From NCBI RefSeq assembly GCF_014695575.1, contig NZ_JACJOO010000067.1, positions 62,001 through 126,000 of the forward strand: a stretch of DNA of 64,000 bases, in the 5' to 3' direction. The notes under the pieces are model-generated. The model worked only from the letters and a program-made list of their open reading frames with translations. It was not told where the DNA came from and ran no database searches. Positions within the stretch are counted from its first letter, which is position 1. Each line of letters opens with the position of its first letter. The translations under genes were made by a program, and so were the position numbers. This document shows positions 20,475 through 48,079 of the stretch, in pieces. This DNA is from Leptolyngbya sp. FACHB-8. GTDB lineage: Bacteria > Cyanobacteriota > Cyanobacteriia > Elainellales > Elainellaceae.

Positions 20475-22247
20475 CTAATCCGTTGTAGGAATACCCAGGC
20501 GGCGCTTCACCCGAAACCAGCCACTCCGCAGTTTCCAGAACTTGCTGGATTCCATAGCCGCGATGCGGGCTCTGGCATCATACAGATCGCGATAGTTTTG
20601 TTGGGCGTATTGGATCGTCAGGCCAGGGGTAAACTCCTGATGCCAGAAGACGAGGCGCAGGGCAATTTGTTCTGTCTCAGAAATGGGGGCGGGAGGTTGC
20701 ACCTCCACGGTCACTTCGTAGCTGAATTTGAATTGGGTTCGTTGGGCCAGGTGAAGCAACAGGCAGGTGTGGGCAGCTTCGCTGAGTTCCGGGTCACGCC
20801 CCAACCATGATAGACAAGACTGACGCACCAAAAAACTACCGGGAGCAACCAGGGGCTGAAGCTGCAACAACCGCTCAGAACTGTAGGGATGAAAGCTGTA
20901 CAACTCAAGGGGATCGCCCGATCGCCCCACAGCTCCGCTATAGGCAACTCCCACTTCAGGATTTTGCTCCAGAATTTGTACGAGCGTCCCAATGTGATTG
21001 GGATACAGCACATCTCCAGCGTCCAAAACTCCAGCGTACGTGCTGTGGATGCGGCTCAGTCCCTTCCACAAAGCAGTGCTGAAGGGAACATCAGCGGGAA
21101 CCTCCAACCGCATCATGGAAACATCGGTGTGATGCCATTCTGCCCGTTCAGAATCCGTGGCGGATTGGATTAAGGTAACGGAGAGATTGGGATACGTTTG
21201 CCGGCTGAGGCTGTCGAGCGATCGCCCCACCTCTTCCGCCGACTTTCCCACCCCCATCAAGAGGATCTGCACCGGGCATTCCTCCTCGATCTGCAAGTGG
21301 CCGTGCGCCACAAACTGCTTCTCAGGCAGTACCTCCTGCTGAAGCTGAGGCAGGTTTTGCAGCAGTTTTTCCAGGGTGTAATGGTCGTTGAAGTGGGCGT
21401 GGGCTTGCTGGGTGAGGGCGATCGCAGCCTCCCGATTTCCACAAATCCAGGCCATGTGCTGATCAATCTGCCGGGCCTGCTCTACCGGGCTAGCTTCCGC
21501 GTCAATATACAACACGGAATCCCCAAAGGCGTCGCGGATAAAGGGATGATCGCTACAAACGGCTACAGCTCCAGCAGCAACAATTTCAAAAATGCGCATG
21601 GAGGCAACCCCAGCCCGTCGGTGCTCATCCCGATGCAGACACAGGCCCACCCCTGCTTGATGGAGGGTTTTGAAAAGACTGGTGCCATCAAAGGGTAGGC
21701 TACCCCGGTACGCATTCTTCAAGTACTGCCACCCAGCAGGATTGCCGTACACTGCCATATAGGGCCGCTGATCCAGCTCACGGAACAGATCGGAGAAGCG
21801 CTGTCCATCCCAATTAGAGCCACAGTAAACCAATTGTGGGTTGTCAAGTTGAGGCTGCTGGTATTCGGTGGCGGGGGAGCTGGTGTAAAAAGGCATCCGC
21901 AGAAACGGCTTGGGGGTGTTGCTCAGCAAACGATGCAACCACCGCTCGATGTAGGGGGCGGCAACCAGATAGCCGTCATAGGAAAGGATGTGGGCGATCG
22001 CCTTATCCACCCCTTCAAAAAAGTGGGGCGGGCTCCAAATACACCCGTATGTAGGAAATGACGTCAGCTTAGGAGCGTTGTCGTGCATCGCCAGCACGCA
22101 ATCCGGTTGAAAATCCTGGATCTCCTGAGCATTGCGACAGGTGACAGCTTGCCAGCCCAACCGTTGCGCGGCGATTTCAATACGGCGAGCTAATTCGGCT
22201 TCAGCAAACCAGTTTTCTTCAAAGGGGTAATGAAGGGCAATTTTCAT
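20475..22247 (-). CDS. Two-domain glycosyltransferase (CgeB/GT4-like, GT2)
   Basis: Composite glycosyltransferase of 590 aa with the domain order reversed relative to the 17848 gene. Residues 1-320 resemble CgeB/GT4-type transferases (MKIALHYPFEENWF start; a RAGVASMRIFEIVAAGAVAVCS donor-site helix). Residues about 340-530 are a GT2-like domain (VQILLMGVGKSAEEVGRSLDSL, then GVLDAGDVLYPNH in the DxD position). The last 30 residues form a short helix, ARIAAME, then the tail SSKFWKLRSGWFRVKRRLG, shared with three other proteins of this island. Predicted cytoplasmic or peripheral membrane enzyme of surface-glycan assembly. Acceptor and donor unknown. It lies after a small coiled-coil protein gene, separated by a hairpin. 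Confidence 0.82.
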   Translation of the reverse strand: MKIALHYPFEENWFAEAELARRIEIAAQRLGWQAVTCRNAQEIQDFQPDCVLAMHDNAPKLTSFPTYGCIWSPPHFFEGVDKAIAHILSYDGYLVAAPYIERWLHRLLSNTPKPFLRMPFYTSSPATEYQQPQLDNPQLVYCGSNWDGQRFSDLFRELDQRPYMAVYGNPAGWQYLKNAYRGSLPFDGTSLFKTLHQAGVGLCLHRDEHRRAGVASMRIFEIVAAGAVAVCSDHPFIRDAFGDSVLYIDAEASPVEQARQIDQHMAWICGNREAAIALTQQAHAHFNDHYTLEKLLQNLPQLQQEVLPEKQFVAHGHLQIEEECPVQILLMGVGKSAEEVGRSLDSLSRQTYPNLSVTLIQSATDSERAEWHHTDVSMMRLEVPADVPFSTALWKGLSRIHSTYAGVLDAGDVLYPNHIGTLVQILEQNPEVGVAYSGAVGRSGDPLELYSFHPYSSERLLQLQPLVAPGSFLVRQSCLSWLGRDPELSEAAHTCLLLHLAQRTQFKFSYEVTVEVQPPAPISETEQIALRLVFWHQEFTPGLTIQYAQQNYRDLYDARARIAAMESSKFWKLRSGWFRVKRRLGIPTTD

Positions 22248-22294
22248 AAGATTTTGCTATATCATTCCGTCTTTCTGAAAACTGTTTGAGATAC

Positions 22295-22327
22295 AAGAAT
22301 TGCAGTTTTTGAAGAACTGCAATTCTT
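22295..22327 (-). repeat. Intergenic hairpin
   Basis: Perfect 13-bp inverted repeat (22295-22307 with 22315-22327) around a 7-base loop, between the 22340 and 20475 genes. No clear U-run on the minus strand, so any terminator role would be partial. Confidence 0.6.
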
Positions 22328-22339
22328 ACGCGCAGAAAA

Positions 22340-22801
22340 TCACATGAGGGAAAAGATACCGAGAGAGCCAGGAACTTTTTGTTGCAGTTTTTGTAGGCTT
22401 TCCCAATGGTGAGGTTCAGTAGGAAGCTTACAGAGAATGATCTGGGTCTTATCCGAAATGACGGACAGTTCCAGATCGTCGTGCCAATTCCAACCCATCG
22501 CTTGGAGGTTAGAAGATGGAATCCCTAAAGTTTGCTGAGCAGCCGCTGTTTCCTGAGCATTACCTAGCAGGAGAAAGGATCGCGTAGGCCTTGCTTCTAA
22601 TATCTGCAAGATACGAATTGATGCCTCTAAAAGTGCCGTTTCATTTTCCAATTGAGCTTCTGCAAAATTGTCTAACCGACGGGTTAAAACCGCAATATCC
22701 TGAGTCGTTTTTGAGAGTCCTTCGAGTTGTTCTAATCGACGAAGAATCTCATCCAGTTTGTTTAGAAGTAGCTCTTTGATAACTTTGATGCGATTCAGCA
22801 T
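22340..22801 (-). CDS. Uncharacterised coiled-coil protein in glycan island
   Basis: I do not recognise a family for this 153-aa protein. Residues 1-75 are helical and rich in Leu/Glu/Lys heptads (KVIKELLLNKLDEILRRLEQ onward), likely a coiled coil. Residues 80-153 look like a small alpha/beta unit starting RSFLLLGNAQETAAAQQTLG. There is no signal peptide. It starts 5 bases after the stop of the upstream GT2 gene (22807-23697), so the two are very probably co-transcribed and translationally linked. A partner or scaffold for neighbouring glycosyltransferases is possible, but that is inference from context only. Confidence 0.7.
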   Translation of the reverse strand: MLNRIKVIKELLLNKLDEILRRLEQLEGLSKTTQDIAVLTRRLDNFAEAQLENETALLEASIRILQILEARPTRSFLLLGNAQETAAAQQTLGIPSSNLQAMGWNWHDDLELSVISDKTQIILCKLPTEPHHWESLQKLQQKVPGSLGIFSLM

Positions 22802-22806
22802 TGCGA

Positions 22807-23697
22807 TTAGGAATTTATAGAGTTAGATCGGTTGGAATGAAGCAAATCAGCTAACTGGCTGCGAAGGTCTTCACCTTTTTCCAGAAGAGCTTTAGCTCTG
22901 GGTGTATTCGCAAAAACAGGACGAGCTTTCGCAGCTCGGCTTAAGCTCTCATGAAGGCTAATAACTTCATGCTGAAGATAGCGAACCCGCTGCTGAAGCC
23001 AGTCGTCTTGCTGGAAAAGAGGAGCACTATTTTGAACACGGAAAAACTCTGTCAGTGAAAGAGTCTGTTCGCGGCAGGAAAAGCCCTGGTTCGAAAAAGA
23101 AGCAATGATTTCAGGAAAATAGCAAACTACAGCTTCAGGATATTGAGCCAATCGTAAAAACCAGTCATAATCCGCTGAAATTCGATATGTCTCATCAAAC
23201 AGTCCCAGCTTCTCAAACAAATGGCGACCGAAGAAACTGGCAGAATGTTGAGGGCCATCCGAAAACCACAAAAGAGCTTCTTTCAGTTCTTCAGGAGGCC
23301 GGGGTACGCGATGAATCGTGCGGTTATTTTGCACAATTCGCATTTCCATTTGCCCGTACACAAAATCACATTTTGGTTGCTGGGCGATGAAATTTGCTAA
23401 CTTCTCAAAGACCTGATGATTAACGAGGTAATCATCAGAATTGAGGAAGTACAAAAAGTCTCCCGTTGCCATGCGGATACCCTTGTTCATGGCCGCATAG
23501 ATTCCCCCGTCAAGTTCGCTGACAACACGGGCAATCTTCGAGGCGTATTTCTGGACGATATCGAGGGTGCGATCGCTCGACTTCCCATCGATAATCAAAT
23601 ACTCCACATTCGGGTAAGTTTGATTGACAACGCTCTGAATGGCTTGTTCAATGTGAGCTTCAGCATTCTTACAGACCGTGATAACCGTGATTTTCAT
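22807..23697 (-). CDS. GT2 family glycosyltransferase (WcaE-like)
   Basis: Single-domain GT2 glycosyltransferase (296 aa). It starts MKITVITVCKNAEAHIEQAI and has the nucleotide-sugar Asp motifs LIIDGKSSDRT and FLNSDDYL, followed by ADYDWFLRLAQ in the acceptor region. The overall pattern matches WcaE-type transferases of colanic-acid and exopolysaccharide clusters. The C-terminal 60 residues are probably helical. It transfers a sugar from a nucleotide donor to a growing lipid-linked glycan on the cytoplasmic side; the particular sugar is unknown. It lies 44 bases after the 23742 gene and 5 bases before the small coiled-coil gene. No FWKLR tail. Confidence 0.88.
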   Translation of the reverse strand: MKITVITVCKNAEAHIEQAIQSVVNQTYPNVEYLIIDGKSSDRTLDIVQKYASKIARVVSELDGGIYAAMNKGIRMATGDFLYFLNSDDYLVNHQVFEKLANFIAQQPKCDFVYGQMEMRIVQNNRTIHRVPRPPEELKEALLWFSDGPQHSASFFGRHLFEKLGLFDETYRISADYDWFLRLAQYPEAVVCYFPEIIASFSNQGFSCREQTLSLTEFFRVQNSAPLFQQDDWLQQRVRYLQHEVISLHESLSRAAKARPVFANTPRAKALLEKGEDLRSQLADLLHSNRSNSINS

Positions 23698-23741
23698 AGC
23701 AGGATAGTTGAGGGAAACACGAACACGAGAGGGGAATACAA

Positions 23742-25355
23742 TTACTCCTCGGCAGGAAGACCTAAACGCCGTTTAATTCGAAACCAGAGACCCCGCAATT
23801 TCCAAAATTTGCTGGTTTCCATCGCTTCAATTAATTGGTTCTTCTGAGTCATTTCGGCCTCTAGAAACTGGATGCGTCGTTCCTGAGTTTGGAGCTCCTG
23901 AGTATCGTGCAGCAGCGCATGAACCAGCACAGGCTTATGAATTGCTTCGTAGTGTTCACCCAGAGTGGCATTGAAGCCAGCCAGGCTAGTCTGAACCGGA
24001 GGTGAGACAGTTTCCGTTAGAACTGTGTTCACGAGCGTCGCTGTGCCCCCGGAGTTAGAGCTTGTACTGCTGGAACTCCCATTTGAAGACGATTGGAGCA
24101 GGGACTCATACAACGCTAAAAAGCGCTGCCCGATCACGGGCATGGAGTACTCCGTTTCGGCAATTTCCCGGCAGAGAGACTGCATAGCGACAGAGGCTTC
24201 GCGCTGTAGTACACAATCGACGATGAGCTCTGCCATGCGCTTAAAGTCGCCCACAGGAGCAAGCCAACCCGTTTTACCCGACCGAATGACATCCGGCATG
24301 CCACCCACATCAAAGCCAATCAGAGGTGTGCCACAACTGATAGCCTCTAACATGACGTTGGGCAGATTATCCTCTAGCGACGGCAGAATAAACGCATCTG
24401 CTGCTGAGTAGAGTTCTGCTAGCTTTTGGGGCGAGTTGCAAAAGCCCACATGAACATATGGAATGTCAGGAGCATCCAGGGGATGGCTGATGTTGCCAAA
24501 AAAGAGGAATTGAATCTTACCAGCATTGGCAGCGGCCCTAAACTTTCCATTCTGCAGAGCGCGGCGAATCGCCTCCAACACTTGGGGGAATTCCTTCCGA
24601 GACTCGATGCTGCTCTGGGCAATGAAGGTGAACGCTCCCGGTTTAAGACCTAGACGTCGCCGGGCAGCAGGTTTACCCAGGGGTCGAAAAACATCCGTTT
24701 CGATCGGGTTAGGAATGACATGAATGGGGCAGTTCCCCAAGAGACGGCTCTGTCGTGCCTCCTGGGCCATCCAGCGGCTCGGCGTCACAATCGTCAGGTT
24801 GGGGACGTGCGCTAGGAGCTCCAATTTGTCTTGAAGCACCGCGGATGGAAGATGGTAGGGGTCATTCTGCAATTGTGGGCAGGGGGCGCAATTATCGGTG
24901 TAGCCACTACACCCCGAGCTGTAGTGACACCCTCCAGTAAACGGAGCCATGTCATGCAACGTCCAGACGACAGGCTTGCCTAGTTCCAGCAGGGCCTTCA
25001 GAGAGGTGGGGGAGATGAATTGGCTGACCCAATGCAGATGGATAATGTCGGCCTGGGCGATCGCCTCGACCGACGTTAAATCTAACCCTGGATATGCGGC
25101 CGTAAAAAGGGTTTTGGCTCGATTGGTCAGATTACGGTTCAAGTAACGCCGCTGAATGGCTAGCCATTCAGGAGACTGGAGTTCCAGTTCGAGCGCTTGT
25201 GAGGTCACCTCCAGGACAGTGGGATCGGTCGAGACCTTCCAGCGCACCGCCATGCGGCTATCCTGCCCCAACTGTCGAAGTGATTTATGCAGGCGATAAG
25301 CCGCCAGCGCCGCTCCGCCACGAATATCTCGGGTGTTGACCTGAACAATTTTCAT
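23742..25355 (-). CDS. GT4 glycosyltransferase with FWKLR tail (copy 1)
   Basis: GT4 (group 1) glycosyltransferase, 537 aa. The start MKIVQVNTRDIRGGAALAAY is the glycine-rich first loop of the GT-B fold. The donor-site block has FILPSLEDNLPNVMLEAISCGTP-type sequence with the ExxxxxxxE pattern. Between the halves is a cysteine-rich loop, GGCHYSSGCSGYTDNCAPC, with four Cys that could bind zinc; the next gene has the same loop. Residues about 410-440 are a Ser/Asn-rich linker, then a helix and the tail TSKFWKLRGLWFRIKRRLG. Probably a cytoplasmic or membrane-associated enzyme of surface-glycan synthesis. It is a paralogue of the 25374 gene directly upstream, 18 bases away. Confidence 0.87.
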   Translation of the reverse strand: MKIVQVNTRDIRGGAALAAYRLHKSLRQLGQDSRMAVRWKVSTDPTVLEVTSQALELELQSPEWLAIQRRYLNRNLTNRAKTLFTAAYPGLDLTSVEAIAQADIIHLHWVSQFISPTSLKALLELGKPVVWTLHDMAPFTGGCHYSSGCSGYTDNCAPCPQLQNDPYHLPSAVLQDKLELLAHVPNLTIVTPSRWMAQEARQSRLLGNCPIHVIPNPIETDVFRPLGKPAARRRLGLKPGAFTFIAQSSIESRKEFPQVLEAIRRALQNGKFRAAANAGKIQFLFFGNISHPLDAPDIPYVHVGFCNSPQKLAELYSAADAFILPSLEDNLPNVMLEAISCGTPLIGFDVGGMPDVIRSGKTGWLAPVGDFKRMAELIVDCVLQREASVAMQSLCREIAETEYSMPVIGQRFLALYESLLQSSSNGSSSSTSSNSGGTATLVNTVLTETVSPPVQTSLAGFNATLGEHYEAIHKPVLVHALLHDTQELQTQERRIQFLEAEMTQKNQLIEAMETSKFWKLRGLWFRIKRRLGLPAEE

Positions 25356-25373
25356 TGGTGCACAAACGCTGCT

Positions 25374-27140
25374 TCACGGCTCGGAGTTCCGTCCCAACTG
25401 CTTCAACCTGAACCAGGCATTTCGCAGTTTCCAGAATCGACTGCCTTCCATCTCCGCAATTTTAGCCTGCGATCGTACCAATTCCTCTTGTGTGTGGACC
25501 AACTGTTCCCCTAACTGACTGACCTGCTGCCGCTGATTGGCCAACCGCTCTCGCAGCTTTTGCACCTCCGGTCGCAGCCTTTGTACTTCCGGCCGCAATT
25601 TCTGCAACCTTTGGACCTCTGGCCGCAACTTCTGCACCTCCAGCCGCTTCTCGTGGAGTACTGAACGGGTTTCGTGAAGATCCTGTTTGGTTTGCTGGAG
25701 TAGCAACTTGTCTGCTTCCCAACGTTCCTGAGTAGCATCCAGGCGTTTCTCTAGCGCTCGTCGTTCCCGCAGCAGAGCTTCTTGAGCCAGGTCTGGATAC
25801 AGGGTCGCAAAGTGAGGCCCCATGCTCGTGTCGAGGCTCATATCGCGATCAGCGGGCGATCGCTCGACCAGAGGTGGTGAGGGTAAGTCAGCATATAATG
25901 CCTGGTACCGTTCGGCCTGAAGGGTCAAGGCATAGTTCGCTTCCACATGACGACGAGCTGTTTCTCCCAGGGTTTGGCGTTGTTCAGGTGCCAGGGTTAA
26001 CGTCACAATTGCCTGGGCCAGGGCCTCTAAATCACCGGGTGGAACGAGGGCTCCGGTCTGCCCATCCGGAACAGCATCAGGGATACCTCCGCTGGCAAAG
26101 GCGATAACGGGTGTCCCACAGGCCATGGCCTCCAGCATGGTGTTGGGCAGGTTGTCTTCTAGAGACGGCAGGATGAACAGATCGGCTGCGGCGTAGAGCT
26201 GGCTGAGGGTCTCATCTGAATCAATGGTGCCAAAGGAGCGCACCGGAATTTGGAGGGTTTCTAGATCTTCACTAGGGGCCCCAAAGCAGAGCAGTGTTAC
26301 TTTACCCGCCTCGATCAAGCTCTCAAACTGCGGGTTCGCACGGCACTGCTGCAACGCTTTGAATAATGGCAGAAATCCCTTGCGCTGCTCGTTCCCATTG
26401 TTGGCTCCAATGAGTAGAGCGATCGCCCCCTCATCCAACTCCAGCGCCCGCTTTGCCTCTCCCTTAGGCCAGGGCCGAAACACATCGGTCTCCAACCCAT
26501 AGGGAATGACTTCTATCCGCTGCTGCCGAAACAAAGCACTCTGGCGGGCACAATCGGCCAGCCATTGACTGGGAGTGACCACGGTAATGGGAGATTGCAG
26601 CAGGGCCAGCTTATCTCGCAGCAGATAAGCTGGCAAATCTGCCGGATTTTCGGCTAGCTGAGGGCAGGCATGGCAGGTGGTCTGGTAGCGATCGCATCCC
26701 GCCGGATAGTGACAGCCTCCTGTGAAGGCTGAGCAATCATGAAGCGTCCACACGGCGGGCTTACCGAGCTGTAGCAGCCTTTGCAGGGTCGTCACAGACT
26801 GAAATCTGCTAACCCAATGGAGATGGATCACATCAGCCCCCATTACTTGGGGGAACTGGCTTAGATCCACACCCGGGTAAGGCAGCGAAAAGAGCGTATT
26901 GGTGAGGTCTGAGCGATCCTGGTCGATAAAAACAGATTGAATTGCCGCCAGCCCCATTCGCCGCACGTACTCTTCGGAGTAAACGGTGTCAGTAGCGTAA
27001 ACCTGAGGGTCCGGCGATCGCTTGCTCCGCACCACTAATGAAGATTCCACCCCAATTTGCTGAAGACCAAGGTGTAACCGATAGGTCGCGCGAGCGGCTC
27101 CCCCGTCCACATCATTCGTGCTGAGTAGGGCAACTTTCAT
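25374..27140 (-). CDS. GT4 glycosyltransferase with FWKLR tail (copy 2)
   Basis: GT4 glycosyltransferase, 588 aa, paralogous to the 23742 gene. It starts MKVALLSTNDVDGGAARATY, carries the same four-cysteine loop (GGCHYPAGCDRYQTTCHAC) and a donor-site block LPNTMLEAMACGTPVIAF. After the catalytic part (about 1-410) comes a long coiled coil (about 445-560) that contains near-identical LRPEVQ(K/R) repeats at about 493-528. The protein ends with GSRFWKLRNAWFRLKQLG. The coiled coil suggests self-association or binding to the other tail-bearing proteins of the island. It starts 2 bases after the stop of the upstream 27143 gene, so the two are almost certainly co-transcribed. Substrate unknown. Confidence 0.87.
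   Translation of the reverse strand: MKVALLSTNDVDGGAARATYRLHLGLQQIGVESSLVVRSKRSPDPQVYATDTVYSEEYVRRMGLAAIQSVFIDQDRSDLTNTLFSLPYPGVDLSQFPQVMGADVIHLHWVSRFQSVTTLQRLLQLGKPAVWTLHDCSAFTGGCHYPAGCDRYQTTCHACPQLAENPADLPAYLLRDKLALLQSPITVVTPSQWLADCARQSALFRQQRIEVIPYGLETDVFRPWPKGEAKRALELDEGAIALLIGANNGNEQRKGFLPLFKALQQCRANPQFESLIEAGKVTLLCFGAPSEDLETLQIPVRSFGTIDSDETLSQLYAAADLFILPSLEDNLPNTMLEAMACGTPVIAFASGGIPDAVPDGQTGALVPPGDLEALAQAIVTLTLAPEQRQTLGETARRHVEANYALTLQAERYQALYADLPSPPLVERSPADRDMSLDTSMGPHFATLYPDLAQEALLRERRALEKRLDATQERWEADKLLLQQTKQDLHETRSVLHEKRLEVQKLRPEVQRLQKLRPEVQRLRPEVQKLRERLANQRQQVSQLGEQLVHTQEELVRSQAKIAEMEGSRFWKLRNAWFRLKQLGRNSEP
25550..25660 (-). repeat. Tandem LRPEVQ-coding repeats within GT4 gene
   Basis: Short tandem repeat units encode LRPEVQ(R/K) three times plus the related KRLEVQK unit, spaced as a heptad or hendecad coiled coil. 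The DNA units are similar but not identical, so this looks like an expanded coiled coil, not a recent slippage tract. Confidence 0.7.
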
Positions 27141-27142
27141 GA

Positions 27143-29401
27143 TTAATGGTCTCCGCCTCGGAGCGATCGCTTGACCTGAAGCCAGAGTCGCTGCATTTTC
27201 AAAAACTTACTATTTTCCAGGGCGGCTAGCTTCGTCTGAGCATCGTGTAGAGCATCCTGATACTCCTGAAGCTGCCGAGCCAGATTGCGTTTCTGCCGCT
27301 CTATTTTCTCGGTTTGAGCCACTTTCTGAGCCAGCTTATCTTGCAGGCTCTCAATTTGTTGCTGCTTGAAGGCCAGTTTCTCATCCTTAATTTTTTTAGC
27401 GGTAAAACGCCCCAATTGTTGCATCAGATGATGGTAGTTCTGCTCGGTAAACAGCGGGATTTGATCCCGCTGCCCTGTGTAGGTGGGAAACATCAGCGCA
27501 TTTTTCAGGAAAGGCTCAACCTCTTTCACCCAGGGTTGGGTAAGCAGGGACACCAGGGTAGCTTTGGCTTCATCCACACAGCCCAGGTAGGCCAGTGCAG
27601 CCCCCCATTGCAAGGTGTAAACGGCCAGAGCACGCGTATCTTGACGAGCATGAGCTTGCAAGAAAAGAGCAGCAAAGGCGTCATCGATCCACCCTTTATC
27701 GATAGTTGACAAAGTGTCAGGGAGGCGATCGCCAACCGTTTCCACCCGCAACTCCTGCGTTAACCGAAAAGTATAGGTTGAGCCAACATGGGCAATGGGC
27801 TCAAAATGGTCAGCCAACCGTTGAACGACCAGGGGGATCCAAAAGCAGGTGTACCATCCGTAGTCTTGAAATAGAAAAATGGTGCCTTTATGAACGTGAG
27901 GGGCCATTTTTAGCAGGAAATACTGGGTGCCATACCAGCTTTTGCACCCATCTACGAAAACAGCACCAAACTGGCTATCAGGAGGTTCAAACTCTTGTTC
28001 AAGCTGTCCGACCTGCTCAGGATAATCAGGCAAAGCCTGACTTTGAGAGACCAAGAATGCGCTGTAAGGCTGATTTTCATGGAAGCGTTGGAAGACTTCC
28101 AAAAAGCTAGTTGAGGTTTCAACCGTTGCCTTTAAATCAGCAGGTAATCGCCCTTCTTCAAATGAAGTTTGAAGGAAATTGGAGAGCTGTTGAGGGTCGT
28201 AATACTCGTCAAAACGATCGCATGTATAGAACTTTGTTTCGGGGTTTCGTTGAGGATTTGCCGCCATACCGAGGGCGATCGCTCGCGAGGTTCCTCCTAA
28301 AAATGGCCCAATCTCGAAAACATCCTCATTCCCTGGCCAGAACTTCGCAAAGTAGTTATATAAAAAACGCCGTTCTTTAGCAGAAACCTCTGATGGAACC
28401 TCATCCAATTGGGCTGAAAGTTCAGGGGATGATACCTGAAAATAATGCGGCGTATTGTAACCCAACTCGTATAAGGGCTCCAGGTCTAAAAATTGCTGTT
28501 TTAAACCCTCAGGAGACTGAAAATATTGGGCTCCGAGGTAATAATCTACTAACTCTAATTGTGCCGGAGTAATAGAATCGGATGGCTCCTGAAATAGGGA
28601 CTTAATTTTCTGGATACGCGGCTCATCCAATGTGGCTAAGGTCAAAGCTAAACGCTTCGGGTCTGCAGCAGAACGAGTGACATTACCAGTATCAATGTAG
28701 AGATAAGGACACCCAGTTTTAACCGCATAAAACACATGAGAGCTAATATCATTGCCTGCCGCGTAGCGATGCAGTGACAGCAAATGATAAAGTCGCGCCA
28801 TGAAGAGGGGATCGTACATATGCCCCGCCGAAACGACTCGAAACCCCGCCGCTTCAAAGGGCTTTTGACACCCGAGCTGGAAATCTCGCCAATATAGACA
28901 AATGGTAACAGGATGGTAACGTTGTTCTAACGCATGAAGCTTATCAATAACAACTTGAGGATCAAATGCCGTGGTAATGTGATGAGTCGAGTGCGTCAGG
29001 AAAAAGAGAGTGCCATCGCGCTCGGGCTTAGGTGCATTTTTATAGAGATCTAGTAAATAGAGAAACGGCGAACTTAAAGGGTATAAGCGTTTATGAACAT
29101 GCTGCTTCTTTAAGTTATTTTCGTAATTTTTCTGAAGGTGTTCTGAAAAGTAGAAAGCAGCCGGCAAAGGACTGAAAATTTCTTTATGCCAAATAAAAGT
29201 ATCTGATAAATAAACTCCATGAGGAACCACTCCCTTCAAGGCGTAATCCGGGGGAAGATTGGCATAGGTTTTGAGAATGCGATCGCCCCCATAAAACGCA
29301 TTTCCATGAAAAATTTCAACGTTCCCCTCGGGACATTCCTGACACAAACTCTCCAGGTTTTCCTGCTGTGCCAGGGTCTCGTCCAGAGTTAATTCAAACA
29401 T
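27143..29401 (-). CDS. Composite glycan protein with methyltransferase domain
   Basis: 752 aa from the ATG at 29401 (MFELTLDETLA). The frame is open to 29581, but the extra 60 residues look like non-coding sequence, and no good ribosome-binding site marks either start. Residues 1-330 resemble a transferase-like alpha/beta fold with no family I can name surely; VFYAVKTGCPYLYID is similar to nucleotide-sugar-binding ends of capsule proteins. Residues about 335-610 are a Rossmann methyltransferase of the Methyltransf_24 type (VFEIGPFLGGTSRAIALGM, then GAVFVDGCKSW and LFQDYGW). The end (675-752) is a coiled coil and the tail NSKFLKMQRLWLQVKRSLR, the most divergent copy of the shared FWKLR tail. 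Probably modifies or builds the same glycan; activity is inferred. Confidence 0.72.
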   Translation of the reverse strand: MFELTLDETLAQQENLESLCQECPEGNVEIFHGNAFYGGDRILKTYANLPPDYALKGVVPHGVYLSDTFIWHKEIFSPLPAAFYFSEHLQKNYENNLKKQHVHKRLYPLSSPFLYLLDLYKNAPKPERDGTLFFLTHSTHHITTAFDPQVVIDKLHALEQRYHPVTICLYWRDFQLGCQKPFEAAGFRVVSAGHMYDPLFMARLYHLLSLHRYAAGNDISSHVFYAVKTGCPYLYIDTGNVTRSAADPKRLALTLATLDEPRIQKIKSLFQEPSDSITPAQLELVDYYLGAQYFQSPEGLKQQFLDLEPLYELGYNTPHYFQVSSPELSAQLDEVPSEVSAKERRFLYNYFAKFWPGNEDVFEIGPFLGGTSRAIALGMAANPQRNPETKFYTCDRFDEYYDPQQLSNFLQTSFEEGRLPADLKATVETSTSFLEVFQRFHENQPYSAFLVSQSQALPDYPEQVGQLEQEFEPPDSQFGAVFVDGCKSWYGTQYFLLKMAPHVHKGTIFLFQDYGWYTCFWIPLVVQRLADHFEPIAHVGSTYTFRLTQELRVETVGDRLPDTLSTIDKGWIDDAFAALFLQAHARQDTRALAVYTLQWGAALAYLGCVDEAKATLVSLLTQPWVKEVEPFLKNALMFPTYTGQRDQIPLFTEQNYHHLMQQLGRFTAKKIKDEKLAFKQQQIESLQDKLAQKVAQTEKIERQKRNLARQLQEYQDALHDAQTKLAALENSKFLKMQRLWLQVKRSLRGGDH

Positions 29402-29598
29402 AGGAAAAAGGCTAAAGAACAGATAGGTAGTTAATCCTGCTAAGCATGATTCCAAGAGGCTCAGCAGATTGAGCCCCACCATTCTCTCACAACCCATAGA
29501 GGATAATACATCCCACTTGTTTGAGGTAGGTGAAGCTCGCTCACACAAGTGGGTTTCCAAATTTGCAAAATTGGAATACATCCCCCGGAATTATCCTA

Positions 29599-30630
29599 TC
29601 AGGACTGAACCCGTTGCAAAATTTGCTGAACAATGCGATCGCCCCCCTGTCCATCAATCGTTTGCCACCCTTTACTGGCTAACGCGCTCAAGCGTGCTGG
29701 ATCCATCAGACGACTTCGTAAGGTATCCGCTGCCTGTTCAACAGCTCCCAAGTTCTCCAGCAAATCCAGTGCCGCTAGAGGTTCTACGTAAGGAGCCATG
29801 TTTTCCCAAGCGATCGCTCCACAAGGCCGCCCCAGGCACATCACTTCATAGCTTGTGATACCTCCTAACGTAATAGTCAGGTCGTGTTCCACAATCAACT
29901 CCGCTAGAGACGATGGCGCGTTCAAAAGGCGAATGCGTGGCTCCTTCTGGGCCAGGTTTTGTAGATGATAGCGATGATTGGGATGGAATGCTGGACCGGC
30001 GATCGCTGTCACCTCTAAATCGGCCTCGTCCAAGAGGGGCCGCAGCCGCTGCAGAAAGTTCAGCGTCAGGTTAGCAGGGTCAGCGCCTCCCAGAGTCACG
30101 AGAATGCAGCGAAGGCGATCGTCCTGCCAGGGTTGCTCCGGTCGTAAGTCTCGCACTGACTCCCGAATCACTCGATAAGGCGATCCGATCAATGCGGCCT
30201 TCTCAAACGATGCAGGCAGATCAGCCGTGGATTTCGAGCTATCTTCGTCCACAATCATGTCAGCCGAAAAACGCCCACTAGCGCTGTCGTTCAGGTGCAC
30301 CAATAGCCGATACCCTTCATCACGGGCGGCCTGGAAATCCTTATCCTCCAGGTCCATCAAGTCGGTGATGAGGACGGCATAAGTGCCGGGGGGAGCGAGG
30401 AGCGATCGCCAATCCAATGCCGTCTCCCGATCCTCGACGCCCAAGACTTCACAACCTTTGGGGGCAAAGTGTTCCACCAATTCGGGTGGAGCCTCCCAGA
30501 TCACCAGAACACGGTGCCAGTAGCTTGTTTTTAGCAATGCCTGGGCCAGGGTGGCGGTACGGGAGAGGTGACCGACACCAATGTGGCGATTTCCAGCAGC
30601 CTGAAGCACAACAACGGGGCGGGTAAACAT
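29599..30630 (-). CDS. pseG: PseG-type UDP-sugar hydrolase / SpsG family
   Basis: Predicted UDP-2,4-diacetamido-2,4,6-trideoxy-beta-L-altropyranose hydrolase, the fourth step of pseudaminate synthesis, which removes UDP. It has a GT-B-like (MurG-like) fold. The protein is 343 aa, somewhat longer than Campylobacter PseG (about 275 aa). Visible: IGVGHLSRTATLAQAL, the GxGHxxR pattern with the catalytic His; LVTLGGADPANLT in the second half; and LTITLGGITSYEVMCLGRP at the nucleotide site. Neighbours encode the synthase (PseI) and the other Pse enzymes, which supports this role over a generic SpsG. A strong hairpin (30701-30766) separates it from pseI. Confidence 0.82.
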   Translation of the reverse strand: MFTRPVVVLQAAGNRHIGVGHLSRTATLAQALLKTSYWHRVLVIWEAPPELVEHFAPKGCEVLGVEDRETALDWRSLLAPPGTYAVLITDLMDLEDKDFQAARDEGYRLLVHLNDSASGRFSADMIVDEDSSKSTADLPASFEKAALIGSPYRVIRESVRDLRPEQPWQDDRLRCILVTLGGADPANLTLNFLQRLRPLLDEADLEVTAIAGPAFHPNHRYHLQNLAQKEPRIRLLNAPSSLAELIVEHDLTITLGGITSYEVMCLGRPCGAIAWENMAPYVEPLAALDLLENLGAVEQAADTLRSRLMDPARLSALASKGWQTIDGQGGDRIVQQILQRVQS

Positions 30631-30700
30631 AACGAGGGCTGTATAGCAATGTTTTTGATGCTAACGCAGAACGCAGAGAGGCTGTTTTTGACTCATCTTG

Positions 30701-30766
30701 CACCGCACCGATTGTGCCAGGGTAGATGAGTCGGGCTCCATCCACCCTGGCACAATCGGTGCGGTG
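30701..30766 (-). repeat. Long hairpin between pseI and pseG
   Basis: A perfect 23-bp inverted repeat (30701-30723 with 30744-30766) surrounds a 20-base loop. A second 9-bp inverted repeat (30690-30698 with 30724-30732) uses part of that loop, so alternative folds are possible. It lies in the 187-base gap between co-directional pseI and pseG. No U-run on the minus-strand RNA. Confidence 0.7.
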
Positions 30767-30817
30767 AACTGATGGTTGCAGTGGAAAAACAGTCGCTTGG
30801 GTGCTACGAGACCCGGA

Positions 30818-31870
30818 CTAGCCAATCAAGTCCCAAGACATTGGTGTTCCTTTTTTGACCGCTCGATTGATGGTTTTCCCGAGAAGGGTTTCTAGATATT
30901 TGGGAGGAAGCCCCAAACCAGGGCGCACAGCTCGGAGATTTTTAGAAGTGAGGCGATCGCCCGCCTCCATATTCTCAGCAATGTAGAGCGATCGCCGGTA
31001 CTGCAATGACGCTTGCTCTGCTTCAGTTGGCCCATACTGAACCTGACCCATGGCTTGCCACGCCCGTTCCGTTTCAATTACGAGCTGTTGCATTTCCTCG
31101 GGCTCCATAGAAAATGCCGAATCTACCCCCCCATCAGCCCGCCGCAGGGTGAAGTGTTTTTCAACGACCGTTGCGCCCAGAGCGATCGCGGCCACCGCCA
31201 CTCCAATACCCATGGTGTGATCCGACAAGCCCACCTGCACACCGAATAAATCTCGCAGATGGGGAATCGTGTTGAGGTTGGAATTTTCAGGAGTTGCAGG
31301 ATAAGTGCTGGTACATTTCAGCAGGACAATATCCTCACATCCTGCGGCTCGCACAGTACGGACAGTTTCATCAAGCTCGGCAATGGAAGCCATGCCGATG
31401 GAAATAATCATGGGTTTGCCAGTGCTGGCCACCTTCCGAATCAGCGGCAAATGAACATTCTCAAAAGATGCAATTTTATAGCAAGGAACGTTTAGCTCCT
31501 CCAAAAAATCAACAGCAGTCTCATCAAAGGGCGTACTAAAAACAATTAAATCCAGCTCTTTACACCGCTTAAAAATGGGCAAGTGCCATTCCCAGGGGGT
31601 ATAAGCTTGCTGATAAAGCTGATGGAGTGAACTGCCTTTCCAAAGACTATTGGGATTATCAATAAAAAATTCTCCATCCGACACATCCAGCGTGATGGTA
31701 TCGGCAGTATAAGTCTGTAACTTAATGGCATGAGCCCCAGTTTTAGCGGCCACCTCAACAATTTCTAGAGCCCGTTCAAGAGATTGATTGTGGTTCCCCG
31801 ACATCTCCGCAATGATGAAGGGAGGATAGTGGGGACCGATGGGGCGATCGCCAATAGTAACCGTATTCAT
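30818..31870 (-). CDS. pseI: Pseudaminic acid synthase
   Basis: NeuB-family synthase that condenses phosphoenolpyruvate with 2,4-diacetamido-2,4,6-trideoxy-L-altrose to give pseudaminic acid. It is 350 aa from the ATG at 31870 (MNTVTIGDRPIG); a TTG nine bases earlier is an alternative. The TIM barrel (1-280) shows FIIAEMSGNHNQSLERAL, IKLQTYTADT, VFSTPFDETAVDFLE, YKIASFENVHLPLI, GLSDHTMGIGV and VVEKHFTLRRADGGVDSAFS. Residues about 290-350 form the SAF (antifreeze-like) domain. The substrate-specific pattern and the pseB/pseC/pseG neighbours favour PseI over NeuB or LegI. The second synthase-like domain of the island is in the 32482 gene. Confidence 0.9.
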   Translation of the reverse strand: MNTVTIGDRPIGPHYPPFIIAEMSGNHNQSLERALEIVEVAAKTGAHAIKLQTYTADTITLDVSDGEFFIDNPNSLWKGSSLHQLYQQAYTPWEWHLPIFKRCKELDLIVFSTPFDETAVDFLEELNVPCYKIASFENVHLPLIRKVASTGKPMIISIGMASIAELDETVRTVRAAGCEDIVLLKCTSTYPATPENSNLNTIPHLRDLFGVQVGLSDHTMGIGVAVAAIALGATVVEKHFTLRRADGGVDSAFSMEPEEMQQLVIETERAWQAMGQVQYGPTEAEQASLQYRRSLYIAENMEAGDRLTSKNLRAVRPGLGLPPKYLETLLGKTINRAVKKGTPMSWDLIG

Positions 31871-31918
31871 AAAAAGCAAAATCTACTAAGTAATAGTATC
31901 GGCATGGTTGACAAGGAA

Positions 31919-32461
31919 CTAGGGCTTTAAACACCGGTAGTGAAAAGCTTCACATCCTTGAATGGTAAGTTGACCAGACTGTATAAAATTAGCAGCCTCA
32001 AATGCTCGAATAGACACTAAATTGTCAACTCTAATATAAGCATGAATAGTGTGAATATCCGTTTCTTGGAACACCTGATAACACGCTGTCTTAAGGGAGA
32101 GTTTGCCATATCCATACCCTCGCATCTCAGGCGCTAGACTAATGCTAATATTTGCCTCCCCAGAACACACTGTATCAAACCGTACCTGCCCAATTGAATT
32201 CCCGTTATGGGAAGCAATCCATAAATAACACCCTGGCTCTGTCAGTTTTTGCTGCAGCCAACGAGTATGGTTTTCCCAAGGAATGGGAGATGTGGAAAAA
32301 GACACAGCTCGCACATGAGGATCATTCGTCCATTGCCAGAGCAAGCGGGCATCTTCAGCAGTTGCAGGTCTTAGATAGATTGAGACGTCCAAGTCAACTC
32401 CCTGCCGATGCCCTTTCTGCAGAAATGGCTGAGAAAGTTCAGGATCAACCGTGTAGTCCAT
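31919..32461 (-). CDS. pseH: GNAT N-acetyltransferase, PseH-like
   Basis: GNAT-fold acetyltransferase of 180 aa. In this context the likely reaction is N-acetylation of UDP-4-amino-4,6-dideoxy-beta-L-AltNAc by acetyl-CoA, the third pseudaminate step (PseH). Visible are the RPATAEDARLLWQWTNDPHVR start of the fold, SISLAPEMRGYGYGKLSLKT with the acetyl-CoA pyrophosphate loop (R/Q-x-x-G-x-G/A), and the C-terminal VDNLVSIRAFEAANFIQSG. The first 25 residues precede the domain and may be an extension or a late-start artefact. It lies 20 bases after the synthase-cytidylyltransferase fusion. A sugar acetyltransferase for another residue is the alternative; the context argues for PseH. Confidence 0.8.
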   Translation of the reverse strand: MDYTVDPELSQPFLQKGHRQGVDLDVSIYLRPATAEDARLLWQWTNDPHVRAVSFSTSPIPWENHTRWLQQKLTEPGCYLWIASHNGNSIGQVRFDTVCSGEANISISLAPEMRGYGYGKLSLKTACYQVFQETDIHTIHAYIRVDNLVSIRAFEAANFIQSGQLTIQGCEAFHYRCLKP

Positions 32462-32481
32462 CCTTTACCAATTCCTTGTAA

Positions 32482-34263
32482 TTAAACAATTTTTGTTTCT
32501 TCATTCAATAAAGCAATCAATTGATTGTCATCGCGATACCTAAGCGATTTATGGCTATTGATTGATGCAACATTTGGATTGTTATCTAAAAATAAAAAGA
32601 TATCAGTTAGGGTATAGCTCACATTGCCCTGAGCGATAAAATTCTGATGCAACTGATTAAATAGCAGCAGATCTTCTTCATAATCTAGAGTTAATCGATA
32701 ATCCCTAACTAACTCATCAGGCAAATCAACAAAATTGAGCCTAAAATGCTCTGGATTGTTCTGAAAATACCATGTCATATACTCAGCATGCTGAGCGGTT
32801 GGGAAATGGCGATGTATTTTTTCAAGGGTCTGCACACTGATAATTTCTAAGTTCGTTCCGACGGCTGCTCTACTTGCTGTAGTGTAGTCTGCAGCATTTT
32901 CAAAATGGGATTTTAGCAATAGTTGGCAGATGTGATTATCAATGAACGGCATATCAGCCGTCACCCGAATAATAATGTCAATTTTTAACTGCTGTGCTAC
33001 ACCTAAGTAGCGCTGAATTACATCTTCAGGATGCCCCTGGTAGAAGATAACGCTGGAGGAAAATAAATAATCCTTTAAGGGCATATCGCTCTCTAGATCA
33101 GATGTTGCCAATATAGTGTGATGAACATTCTGAAATTTGAGAGCATTCCGAAGACAAAACTCAACGGAGGTGAGATCGCCTAAAGTTAACAAAGCTTTCT
33201 TGGGTAGTCTTGATGACTTCAACCGACAGGCAACGATCGTCGCGATTTTTGCTTTCTTAAAGTCATAGCTGTAGAAAGCATCCCCACTTACCTTTTCTGT
33301 CCCCAGGATATGAAATGTGTCCTGCAAGCTTTTAATTTGCCTTGCACTAAGACCTGTTTTATCGGAGCGTTTATAAACTAAGTCTTCACTCAATGCGAGT
33401 AGTTTTCCCGCAGGCACATCCGTTTTTAGGAACGGGATCATTAACGTTTTCTGTAAGTATTCTCTCTCTTTAGCATTAATAAAAGGCTGTTCAGCTAAGC
33501 CTGCATATACAAATTGTTTTTCAATGAATGAGTCATATTTTTCGGGCGTGATACTAGAGAAATAATCATAAGGAGTTTCTCGGTCTGCTAACATAACGTG
33601 TTTTTCAAGAACGTCAGCCCCCTGCATCATCGCCATAATAGGCAGCCAAATGCTATCCTCCGTCGTACCATCTGCATGATCAGCAAAGACAACACGGCAG
33701 TTAAAGCATTGTTTAATTGCTTTAATTTTGCCAATTCCAGAGTCTTCAATTTGTGTAGGATATGCTTGAAATCCTACTTCTAACAACAGCTCCTCAGGCT
33801 GCAAGTCCCGTTTGAACCTTTGAGTGATTTCATCTATTTCATCTAAGGTAAATGACGCAATATTAAGAATCAGCTTTTTACTAGATAAATCGAGAGCTGT
33901 TATTTCCTTAATCAGGCTGTAGTTGTATAGAATCGAAGCTTGAAATTTAATACCGTAGATGGCCTGAAAATTGTTTTTTAAGATTTGAACGCTATAAGAG
34001 TCAAAAATATCGAGCCAAACATCTTTTGTTTGGGCAACTTCTCTAATTAATTGTTCCCATTGGGTCTCATAAAAAAAAAGTTTTTTATAAACCTCATACC
34101 ACTGGTAATTTTCTGTGGCGAGAAAATCAGGATGAAAGGCCTGGAACTTAATTCCAAAACCTTTTGTGTATTTCTGAAACGACCTAACTAGCTCTATTGC
34201 ATAGTTGTGATCACCACCATGTGTATTGGCAAATTCGATAATGTTATAAGGCATGTTTGACAA
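32482..34263 (-). CDS. NeuB-like synthase fused to SpsF cytidylyltransferase
   Basis: 593-aa fusion. Residues 1-255 are a NeuB-family TIM barrel: NIIEFANTHGGDHNYAIEL, FGIKFQAF, VVFADHADGTTED and GADVLEKHVML match the PEP-condensing synthases, though the barrel is divergent (VWLDIFDSYSV where PseI has VFSTPFDETAV). Residues about 265-325 are a SAF-type domain. Residues about 340-590 are an SpsF/PseF cytidylyltransferase: IATIVACRLKSSRLPKKAL is the nucleotide-binding start, followed by IIRVTADMPFID with the metal Asp. It probably supplies the CMP-activation step, since no separate PseF or NeuA is present. The gene is AT-rich compared with its flanks. The synthase half could act on a second nonulosonate or be a non-catalytic partner of PseI. 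Confidence 0.85.
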   Translation of the reverse strand: MSNMPYNIIEFANTHGGDHNYAIELVRSFQKYTKGFGIKFQAFHPDFLATENYQWYEVYKKLFFYETQWEQLIREVAQTKDVWLDIFDSYSVQILKNNFQAIYGIKFQASILYNYSLIKEITALDLSSKKLILNIASFTLDEIDEITQRFKRDLQPEELLLEVGFQAYPTQIEDSGIGKIKAIKQCFNCRVVFADHADGTTEDSIWLPIMAMMQGADVLEKHVMLADRETPYDYFSSITPEKYDSFIEKQFVYAGLAEQPFINAKEREYLQKTLMIPFLKTDVPAGKLLALSEDLVYKRSDKTGLSARQIKSLQDTFHILGTEKVSGDAFYSYDFKKAKIATIVACRLKSSRLPKKALLTLGDLTSVEFCLRNALKFQNVHHTILATSDLESDMPLKDYLFSSSVIFYQGHPEDVIQRYLGVAQQLKIDIIIRVTADMPFIDNHICQLLLKSHFENAADYTTASRAAVGTNLEIISVQTLEKIHRHFPTAQHAEYMTWYFQNNPEHFRLNFVDLPDELVRDYRLTLDYEEDLLLFNQLHQNFIAQGNVSYTLTDIFLFLDNNPNVASINSHKSLRYRDDNQLIALLNEETKIV

Positions 34264-34325
34264 GAGGCTGATAATTTAGTAGAGGCATGAAAAAGAGGTA
34301 GCTTTTCTGTAACTTAGGGTGAGTT

Positions 34326-34859
34326 CTATTGCTTACAATTCAAGTGGCGAACTTCAATCCCACGGTTTTTCTTAGAATCTAATACAATAACATTTGCAAA
34401 GCCTCGTTTTTGGGCTGCCAAACAAATACCATTTGTATCTGATGCTTTGAGAGGGGGTTGATTGGGCGATCGCAACTTATACGACGGATACCCATAAAAT
34501 GTAGCATCACAGTTTGCTGCAGGTAGTCCATCAAGTAATGCTACTCCTGTAATAGCAGGAGCAATAAAAGGAGAAACCTTGCAGTTCCTATACCATTTCC
34601 AATACAACTTATAACTTTGGGGAATAAAAAGAAGAGTTTTTCTTTTCTCCAAAGATGGCATGGTTCCAATTTTTTGCAAAGCAGCAAGCAATTCTTTTCG
34701 CTTCGGATCAGCTTTAGGAAGATCTATAGAATCTTCAACCCCTTTTACAGCCCCTATAACATTACTTATCGAAGCAATAACGATGGGGAGCCCTACAAAG
34801 GCAAACAATAAAGTTTTGAGTGGAATCTGACCAATGTACTTGAGCATTTGTGAACTCAA
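34326..34859 (-). CDS. Uncharacterised membrane-anchored protein
   Basis: No family recognised. The 177-aa protein has one probable membrane helix at about residues 13-37 (LLFAFVGLPIVIASISNVIG) after a short N-terminus. The remainder (40-177) is likely on one side of the membrane and contains four Cys (in NCKVSPF, ANCDATFYG, GICLAAQ and the C-terminal LNCKQ). The gene is AT-rich, like its neighbours. It lies 62 bases before the fusion gene and 93 bases after the multi-spanning protein gene, on the same strand. A role in glycan export or in processing at the membrane is possible by context only. Confidence 0.65.
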   Translation of the reverse strand: MSSQMLKYIGQIPLKTLLFAFVGLPIVIASISNVIGAVKGVEDSIDLPKADPKRKELLAALQKIGTMPSLEKRKTLLFIPQSYKLYWKWYRNCKVSPFIAPAITGVALLDGLPAANCDATFYGYPSYKLRSPNQPPLKASDTNGICLAAQKRGFANVIVLDSKKNRGIEVRHLNCKQ

Positions 34860-34952
34860 CTATCAAGCCGCTGAAGTTAAGATTTAGCTCTGCAAAAAAT
34901 TTCGAAAAAAACTAAACTTACTCTAAGTTTCCCCTTATCAAAGACATAACTT

Positions 34953-36560
34953 TTAAGATATGTAAGATCTGCAGCGAGGGTTCAAAACTATTTGCAGTCC
35001 ATCTGAGCAATGGAGATTTCCTAAAAGAAAGCTAAGGGATAACCAAATTTGGAAATCCATGAAGTAGTAAGCAGCCCCGCCCGCTAAGTCCAATAACATC
35101 CCAGGAAGTAAACCTAAGAAACAGGCAACAACAATAATTTCGACCTCAACAATTTTACCTGTGCGACAAGCTATGACTAAATCACCTACTGTGCTAAGGC
35201 CTATAGCTTGAAGTCGAAGACTGAGGTAGATAACAGACCATAAAAAGAGTATAGGAAACCAAAAGACTCGAAGACCAGGCTCGATAGCAGCAAGATAGGC
35301 AAAAGGTTGTGCAGGGTTAGAGGGCATAGGAGAACCACCTAAATACCCCATAAAGCTCAAGGCCTGAAGCTGTAAACCTATGGAAGCTATTAAACCTACC
35401 CATACTAGCCAATGTGTATAAAGCCGGAGGCGTAAAACGCTATAGAAAACAATGTTGAACAAAACGAAGCCAACCGATACTTTAGATAACGTAATAGCCC
35501 ATAGAAGTAAGCTAACACAAAGTATTAGTAACCCTGTTGAAATAGAATTTTTATTTTTATGCTGATAAGTTAGAAACTTTAAGCATAAGGATAGACAAAG
35601 AAAAGCTAGGCTGAGGGCAAATAGTTGAGATTGACTAACTATGCTGCTGCTTAGAAAAATTCTAAGTTTCGAATATAGAACAATCGGTAAAAAGCCGACA
35701 AAACCAAGAAACAACAATCCCCAAAATTTCCAATCTTTTCTTAGATCTTGCTTGCAAGAACTAAGTTTATCTAAAGAGCGTAAATCTACTACAAAGTTTA
35801 AGAAGCTGTGAAAGAGAATGGGTACTATCAGGATTGGATAGGCTAAATTGTAGAATCGAAAAACACTCAAGTCGAGTAATGGTGCAAGCTGAGCAAATAA
35901 CCAGTGGCTAGCAATGTGATAGGGAAGGTAAACTGGACCATCGATTCCAGTACTCGGTACTCCATAAGTTTGAATCATAGCTGCAACACTGCTGTGGAAC
36001 AGGTTGTCAATATGCAGGGTTGCCGCCAGAAGACTTGCGTTAGGGCGGAGACTCATATAGCGAAAGCCCCAAACTACCCAGGCAATGTAAGTATAGAACG
36101 CAAAAACAATTCCCCCTACCGCCCAGTGTCTCCATTCCAGCCTTGTGGGCATAAATCGCCACAGACTCAAGCAGAGGAGAAGCACTGCCAAAACCCAAAA
36201 AAACGGCATGAAGTTTACGGACAGGTAAGTTCTTAGCCAACTAAGCCCAATTAGAACTGCCAGTCCTAATAGTGTTACGATTGCATCCATTCCCACGTCA
36301 GTCTGGGATGATTGCTTTAACCAAGACCGCAATTCCCGATAACCTTGAGGCAACAGTAGTAGGCAAACACTGACTGCGGCAGAATTCTGAACCTGTTCAA
36401 AGCCCCGCAGTATGTCGGGTTGCACCACCGTGTAACAGATGGAGAGGGTGATCGCCAACATTACACAAAATATTGCCGTAGTCAGCCGGGCCTTCTGAAT
36501 GGAGACTTCTTGGGTAGGTACAGGAGGCAATGCTGCCCCCATACTAAATGGTTCAGACAT
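34953..36560 (-). CDS. Multi-spanning membrane protein of glycan island
   Basis: Hydrophobic protein of 535 aa from the ATG at 36560, which overlaps the stop of the upstream aminotransferase gene by 8 bases (ATGTCTGA); an ATG at 36590 is the alternative. I count roughly ten to twelve hydrophobic helices (for example AVLIGLSWL, LLLCLSLWRF, FWGLLFLGFVGFLPIVL, LFALSLAFLCLSLCLKFL). The hydrophilic loop with HIDNLFHSSVAAM and YHIASHWLFAQL could be the catalytic periplasmic loop of a GT-C enzyme or a polymerase. No conserved domain is recognised with confidence. As the only large integral membrane protein of the island it is a candidate polymerase, ligase or GT-C transferase; this is inference. Confidence 0.7.
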   Translation of the reverse strand: MSEPFSMGAALPPVPTQEVSIQKARLTTAIFCVMLAITLSICYTVVQPDILRGFEQVQNSAAVSVCLLLLPQGYRELRSWLKQSSQTDVGMDAIVTLLGLAVLIGLSWLRTYLSVNFMPFFWVLAVLLLCLSLWRFMPTRLEWRHWAVGGIVFAFYTYIAWVVWGFRYMSLRPNASLLAATLHIDNLFHSSVAAMIQTYGVPSTGIDGPVYLPYHIASHWLFAQLAPLLDLSVFRFYNLAYPILIVPILFHSFLNFVVDLRSLDKLSSCKQDLRKDWKFWGLLFLGFVGFLPIVLYSKLRIFLSSSIVSQSQLFALSLAFLCLSLCLKFLTYQHKNKNSISTGLLILCVSLLLWAITLSKVSVGFVLFNIVFYSVLRLRLYTHWLVWVGLIASIGLQLQALSFMGYLGGSPMPSNPAQPFAYLAAIEPGLRVFWFPILFLWSVIYLSLRLQAIGLSTVGDLVIACRTGKIVEVEIIVVACFLGLLPGMLLDLAGGAAYYFMDFQIWLSLSFLLGNLHCSDGLQIVLNPRCRSYIS

Positions 36561-38345: not shown

Positions 38346-38377
38346 GCCCAGATATCAGCTTGGCCCGTCAGCTTAAA

Positions 38378-39241: not shown

Positions 39242-39408
39242 AGTATAAATTCTTGTATGCTTCTAGCGATCTTAATGACTATCAAAAAAATGGTTCTATC
39301 GTTTTTAATGCAATGTAAAATATGAGTTTAAAATTCATGTTCTTTTAAGGTTTTATATTTTTCGTTTCCAGATTTCAAAAGGTTTCGAGGTTTCTGGCTC
39401 ATCAAAAT

Positions 39409-39771: not shown

Positions 39772-39792
39772 TAGGTTCTCCTGGATAAGAGA

Positions 39793-40563: not shown

Positions 40564-40672
40564 GAATCCCTCTTGAAAGCAGTTTGAGAATGTTTATGAA
40601 GGTTGATTGTCGAATTAGAACGACACGAAAAAGGTTTTTTTCAGCTCGGCTTTACCTGATTTTTGATTCGAT

Positions 40673-41509: not shown

Positions 41510-41515
41510 CTTACG

Positions 41516-42424: not shown

Positions 42425-42434
42425 TATCGACCTC

Positions 42435-43097: not shown

Positions 43098-43147
43098 CTA
43101 CGAAAGCCCTTTTAGATCAGAAAACAAATAATTAACTTTGGTCACTT

Positions 43148-44706: not shown

Positions 44707-44708
44707 AA

Positions 44709-45404: not shown

Positions 45405-45477
45405 ACTTCCAGTCAAAATACTGTATCGTCAAACTTCAAATATCCACTAATTAACAGCTACCTGAAACACTAAGTCA

Positions 45478-48079
<2,602 letters not shown>

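Follow-up and report, generated by a model that had tools for sequence, protein, structure and literature searches.

A C-terminal SKFWKLR tail shared by unlike cyanobacterial glycan enzymes and probably related to the end of the WbdD coiled-coil ruler

Four glycan genes of one cluster end in the same tail

We analysed a 64,000-nucleotide stretch of the cyanobacterium Leptolyngbya sp. FACHB-8 (contig NZ_JACJOO010000067.1, positions 62,001 to 126,000; the window), in which four minus-strand genes of a glycan cluster encode proteins that finish in a short basic and aromatic tail. An earlier note on this DNA had pointed to these four FWKLR ends, and open reading frame (ORF) calls with translations confirm that the tail is the exact C-terminal end of each of four complete ORFs. 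Its consensus is I-x-A-M-E-S-S-K-F-W-K-L-R-x-x-W-F-x-L-K-x-x-L-G, and the S of SKFW is residue 568 of 590, 515 of 537, 567 of 588 and 791 of 812 in carriers 1 to 4, with 22–23 residues remaining. The carriers, their tails and the coiled-coil arms that precede the tails are as follows, where GT denotes glycosyltransferase.

20475..22247, minus strand: carrier 1, CgeB-like GT plus GT2-like part, 590 residues
20478..20546, minus strand: tail 1, SKFWKLRSGWFRVKRRLGIPTTD, C-terminal end of ORF 20475-22247
23742..25355, minus strand: carrier 2, GT4, 537 residues
23745..23813, minus strand: tail 2, SKFWKLRGLWFRIKRRLGLPAEE, C-terminal end of ORF 23742-25355
23817..24002, minus strand: coiled-coil arm of carrier 2 (modelled as helix 452-513), immediately before the TS break
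25374..27140, minus strand: carrier 3, GT4, 588 residues, paralogue of carrier 2
25377..25442, minus strand: tail 3, SRFWKLRNAWFRLKQLGRNSEP, C-terminal end of ORF 25374-27140
25443..25769, minus strand: coiled-coil arm of carrier 3, about 108 residues, limits set by eye
27143..29581, minus strand: carrier 4, unassigned N-terminal part plus Methyltransf_24-like domain, 812 residues
27146..27211, minus strand: tail 4, SKFLKMQRLWLQVKRSLRGGDH, the most divergent of the four, C-terminal end of ORF 27143-29581
27212..27439, minus strand: coiled-coil arm of carrier 4, limits set by eye

The body of carrier 1 matches Glyco_trans_1_2 (CgeB-like) and, weakly, GT2 in Pfam, and the Methyltransf_24 match of carrier 4 lies slightly below the Pfam cut-off. 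The GT4 bodies of carriers 2 and 3 are paralogous and 42% identical, so that the earlier claim of unlike bodies stands for three bodies and not for four. Any two window tails share 8–18 identical residues, 3–10 of them written with different codons as the earlier note had observed, at a nucleotide identity of 51–69%. The same genome encodes a fifth tail on a 319-residue sulfotransferase-like ORF of contig C35, and none of the further glycan ORFs inspected in the window cluster carries one.

The tail is a module spread over cyanobacterial glycan enzymes

A search profile built from the four window tails gave 126 matches, distributed over 66 of 292 sampled cyanobacterial genomes and 43 of 116 genera. 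When the ORFs of the fetched loci were reversed, no match reached E ≤ 1e-3, compared with 102 for the forward ORFs. Among 84,980 prokaryote species scanned with a sequence pattern, the best 76 loci were all cyanobacterial, with about 250 weaker loci besides. Sampling beyond cyanobacteria covered plasmids and E. coli. One tail lies on a Nostoc plasmid, adjoining an ATP-binding cassette (ABC) transporter pair, and a search of phages gave no tail match. A tail on a TylF-like methyltransferase (L201:2257-3120) was seen on a 117-kb IMG/VR contig that is either phage or plasmid.

The impression recorded in the earlier note, that other cyanobacterial GTs end in similar tails, is borne out and extends beyond GTs. 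Bodies of 73 carriers match several methyltransferase families as well as GT2, GT4 and sulfotransferase families; they cluster into separate groups that include FkbM-like proteins and, by eye, a GT8-like nucleotide-sugar transferase. Most of 25 loci related to the window GT4 hold a frame of only about 414–440 residues, which ends with the GT domain. In 182 of 219 distinct tail copies the C-terminus is at most 32 residues away, and internal copies are mostly flanked by an arm on one side and an additional GT module on the other. Because the tail sits on many unlike bodies from several unrelated families, it is a module, exchanged between enzymes, and not the mark of one family by descent, the outcome that the earlier note had named as refuting its reading. 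Carriers also cluster: 71 of the 126 matches have another match within 15 kb, with 1.2 expected by chance. Per-protein Pfam tables held no match specific to the tail, nor did the Pfam and NCBIfam families listed for the 73 carriers include a model for it; a PDB search with the tail profile gave one non-significant match and nothing convincing, and a literature search for FWKLR returned one unrelated paper on an antimicrobial peptide.

The variety of bodies and the internal, fused copies show that gene ends have been exchanged, as they would be if the tail had no function of its own and had spread as a 3′ end by recombination between neighbouring glycan-cluster genes. We consider this highly improbable, since the window copies have diverged at the nucleotide level and in their codons while the residues are kept, and conservation reaches across 43 genera.

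Two further arrangements of the tail were observed. Small proteins at L050:4695-5096, L052:12565-13185 and L040:5620-6174 consist of coiled coil and tail with no enzyme domain and have in common an N-terminal motif like LLKTVWDILESRD; it is possible that they are scaffold or adaptor subunits. A 1042-residue carrier (L075:4544-7672) has two tails in tandem at its C-terminus, with a short linker between them.

A broken helix ends a coiled-coil arm

An extended coiled coil follows the enzyme in carriers generally, and arm lengths vary. In some carriers arms are built of repeats that are multiples of a heptad: the carrier 3 arm contains imperfect 21-base tandem repeats, each equal to one heptad (LRPEVQR). 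The arm at L067:4946-5436 comprises 11.7 copies of a 42-base repeat (14 residues, two heptads) with 94% match; slippage in such near-identical repeats could alter the length of the arm, which a ruler would require. AlphaFold2 with 77 C-termini gave a helix at 5–66, a break at 67–68 at T-S and a 15-residue helix at 69–83, the carrier 2 arm being a 62-residue helix. A full-length AlphaFold2 model of carrier 2 drew on three sequences only and is of low confidence, so that docking of the tail is not readable from it.

Numbered from the S of SKFW, conservation over 102 copies is 95 at S1, 96 at K2, 97 at F3, 99 at W4, 96 at R7 and 95 at W10, with 88 at M-2 and 97 at I/V/L-5 upstream; each of S1, K2, F3, W4, R7 and W10 is kept in 93–97% of the 102. 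The S1 position is S, T or D in all copies except one and lies at the helix break, as expected of an N-cap. The tails carry a mean net charge of +5.3, and 97% of them exceed 1.34 on a HeliQuest-type lipid-binding discriminant, D, compared with 7% of control C-ends (a measure of composition).

Since the tail always comes after an arm, and F3, L6, W10, L13 and L17 have an a/d-like spacing that could pack in an oligomer, we weighed whether it does nothing but terminate or register the arm oligomer, with no membrane or partner role. This is quite unlikely: the helix breaks at S1 with a shift of register, carrier 1 has a perfect tail almost without an arm, and a charge of about +5 on every chain makes it unfavourable to pack tail against tail.

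Unlikely too, though less so, is a tail that serves as a docking tag only, recognized by one conserved membrane or scaffold protein, with lipid contact incidental. The six core residues are kept on unrelated bodies more strictly than a generic lipid-binding helix would need, carriers cluster, and the tail-only coiled-coil proteins exist; these proteins, Wzm/Wzt and a 153-residue protein encoded at 22340 in the window would be candidate partners. No partner was identified, however, some tail genomes are without Wzt_C, and a net charge of +5 and this Trp content are what interfacial helices usually show. A parallel is offered by the encapsulation peptides of bacterial microcompartments, short helices at protein ends that gather unrelated enzymes of a pathway. 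The tail differs from them in that it follows a coiled coil and is highly basic.

Carriers lie downstream of wzt in many genomes

Using Wzt_C (PF14524) to identify wzt genes, we found a carrier within 6 kb downstream of 28 of the 90 best Wzt_C genes, always on the same strand and usually as the next gene, with 0.6 expected by chance; 27 of these 28 pairs fall among the 49 best-scoring Wzt_C genes. These 28 loci come from 28 of the 65 genomes with a tail, and 48 of the 65 also have Wzt_C (a count not corrected for phylogeny). Thirty loci have a Wzm homologue and, downstream on its strand, a carrier; in most of them Wzm and the first carrier are separated by about the length of one wzt gene. By Pfam counts, almost all first carriers after wzt in the 30 loci are methyltransferases (about two thirds of the loci) or sulfotransferases (8 loci). 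Sulfotransferase–coiled coil–tail proteins were seen as the first carrier after wzm-wzt at L047, L076, L080, L092, L093, L094, L098 and L041, and are candidate sulfate chain terminators.

A related motif stands at the end of the WbdD coiled coil

In E. coli, WbdD sets the length of a sugar chain, and its coiled coil is a molecular ruler. WbdD of E. coli O8/O9(a) and Klebsiella O5/O3 is the chain terminator of ABC transporter-dependent O-antigen assembly. The link drawn here relies on published work (PMC3482155, PMC6286764), and the C-terminal region of WbdD has been reported to bind membrane and polymerase (PMC11231755).

On pseudomonadal FkbM methyltransferases, other methyltransferases, sulfotransferases and GTs, the coiled coil is followed by a motif related to the tail, S-x-S-W-[RK]-[LIVM]-T-x-P-L-R. 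A first query for it against plasmids gave no match and a second matched. C-terminal copies leave 18–25 residues, and in several Rhodobacterales sulfotransferases the motif lies at the extreme C-terminus with 19–22 residues remaining, like the cyanobacterial tails. E. coli O8 WbdD (L206:3101-4378; QMADLHNSRSWRITQPLRW) and O9 WbdD (L215:7094-9220; IEKIHRSRSWRMTKGYRYL, near residue 592 of 708) both have the SRSWR[IM]T form at the end of the coiled coil, ahead of the known membrane- and polymerase-recruiting region; both genes come directly after wzt. The literature searched does not mention the SRSWR[IM]T motif of WbdD, and SWRLT or SWRIT returned nothing relevant among the papers listed.

Carriers and WbdD have in common the order enzyme, coiled coil and S-x-[SF]-W-[RK]-[LIM] at the coil end; in the wzt-adjacent loci, but not in the window cluster, the carrier gene also stands in the position of wbdD after wzm-wzt, mostly with an N-terminal methyltransferase. 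Unlike WbdD with its SRSWR[IM]T, the cyanobacterial proteins have the core SKFWKLRxxWFxLK, and up to 4 carriers per cluster with differing catalytic bodies, sulfotransferases included. In hhalign the cyanobacterial and pseudomonadal cores align in register (1–14 with 1–14) at a score of 16.5 that none of 300 column shuffles reached, with a probability of 40–51% over a common core of about 14 columns; given that low probability and short core, homology with WbdD is likely and not proven. We regard the tail as a probable remote homologue of the segment that ends the O8/O9 WbdD ruler and as working in a like manner. The fused polymerase-terminators ORF6 of Klebsiella O7 and WbbB of O12 run from terminator through coiled coil to GT, and cyanobacterial internal tails occupy the corresponding joint between coil and GT, whereas most cyanobacterial carriers are unfused. 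The O7 paper mentions cyanobacterial orthologues.

The window cluster encodes a pseudaminic-type pathway

The carriers are accompanied by the following genes.

22340..22801, minus strand: 153-residue protein with a basic helical N-terminus (MLNRIKVIKELLLNKLDEI), possible partner
29599..47630, minus strand: genes for a pseudaminic-acid type sugar, in the cluster of the carriers
29599, minus strand: PseG-like
30818, minus strand: PseI
31919, minus strand: PseH-like
32482, minus strand: NeuB plus cytidylyltransferase
36553, minus strand: WecE-type
45478, minus strand: PseC
46641, minus strand: PseB

PseB, PseC and PseI score above the NCBIfam cut-off and the PseG- and PseH-like proteins below it; on this gene content, the predicted product of the cluster is a pseudaminic-type sugar. 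Homologues of the 22340 protein lie near carriers at three further loci (L138, L140 and L040). The cluster also encodes, at 34953, a 545-residue polytopic membrane protein that matched no family.

Discussion

We propose, with a probability of about 0.6, that the tail is the membrane-proximal anchor or docking end of a WbdD-type coiled-coil glycan assembly, common to several enzymes of a cluster. Carriers would act in the cytoplasm in the synthesis or capping of a surface polysaccharide. In each, the arm would oligomerize the enzyme and hold its catalytic domain at a distance from the membrane. Where the arm ends, the conserved Ser/Thr would break and cap the helix, and the 15-residue Trp/Phe/Lys/Arg helix would rest on the inner membrane surface and dock with a membrane component common to the carriers, so that several enzymes of a pathway could act next to one another on one lipid-linked glycan. 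Membrane binding, docking, oligomerization and chain-length control by tail and arm are what we infer from these features. The sorting or assembly tag suggested in the earlier note survives as a C-terminal module on unrelated glycan enzymes and fails as an isolated tag, since the tail ends a coiled-coil arm, its genes often adjoin wzt, and it matches the segment that closes the WbdD ruler.

Several observations weigh against this proposal. The window cluster has no wzm/wzt nearby, this genome's Wzt_C genes lie on a different contig, and no Wzt_C match was found in 17 of the 65 tail genomes. Window bodies are one methyltransferase-like and three GT, so that several of its carriers are GT enzymes and no obvious terminators, and in carrier 1 just a short helical stretch precedes the tail. 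The pseudomonadal motif was found with queries of our own composition, and WbdD continues for more than 100 residues after its motif, whereas cyanobacterial carriers usually end about 20 residues later. As for the amphipathic basic aromatic helix of the earlier note, charge, aromatic residues and the AlphaFold2 helix agree with it, but the helix shows only modest amphipathicity when measured at 100 degrees (mean z against shuffles 0.6). Residue conservation is also stricter than membrane binding alone requires; the strictly kept W, F, R and S together with the charge suggest a specific contact besides the membrane surface, perhaps with an export-complex protein or a lipid carrier.

A tentative extension of the anchor proposal is that, across much of the cyanobacteria, the tail-and-arm module would co-anchor unrelated enzymes of a cluster (transferases, methyltransferases and sulfotransferases) in one membrane assembly, and that the sulfotransferases directly after wzt would be a new kind of chain terminator, capping the glycan with sulfate. 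New here are the extent of the tail in cyanobacteria, the several enzyme classes per cluster and the sulfotransferases at the terminator position. Little is settled about how cyanobacteria build and export their surface polysaccharides, sulfated ones among them, and the genes involved are difficult to recognize. A 20-residue signature provides a direct search key for members of the assembly machine and names likely terminators next to wzt. The tail links cyanobacterial glycan enzymes to the WbdD ruler model, gives testable mutants and draws attention to a motif of WbdD that lacks annotation, at the joint between ruler and membrane.

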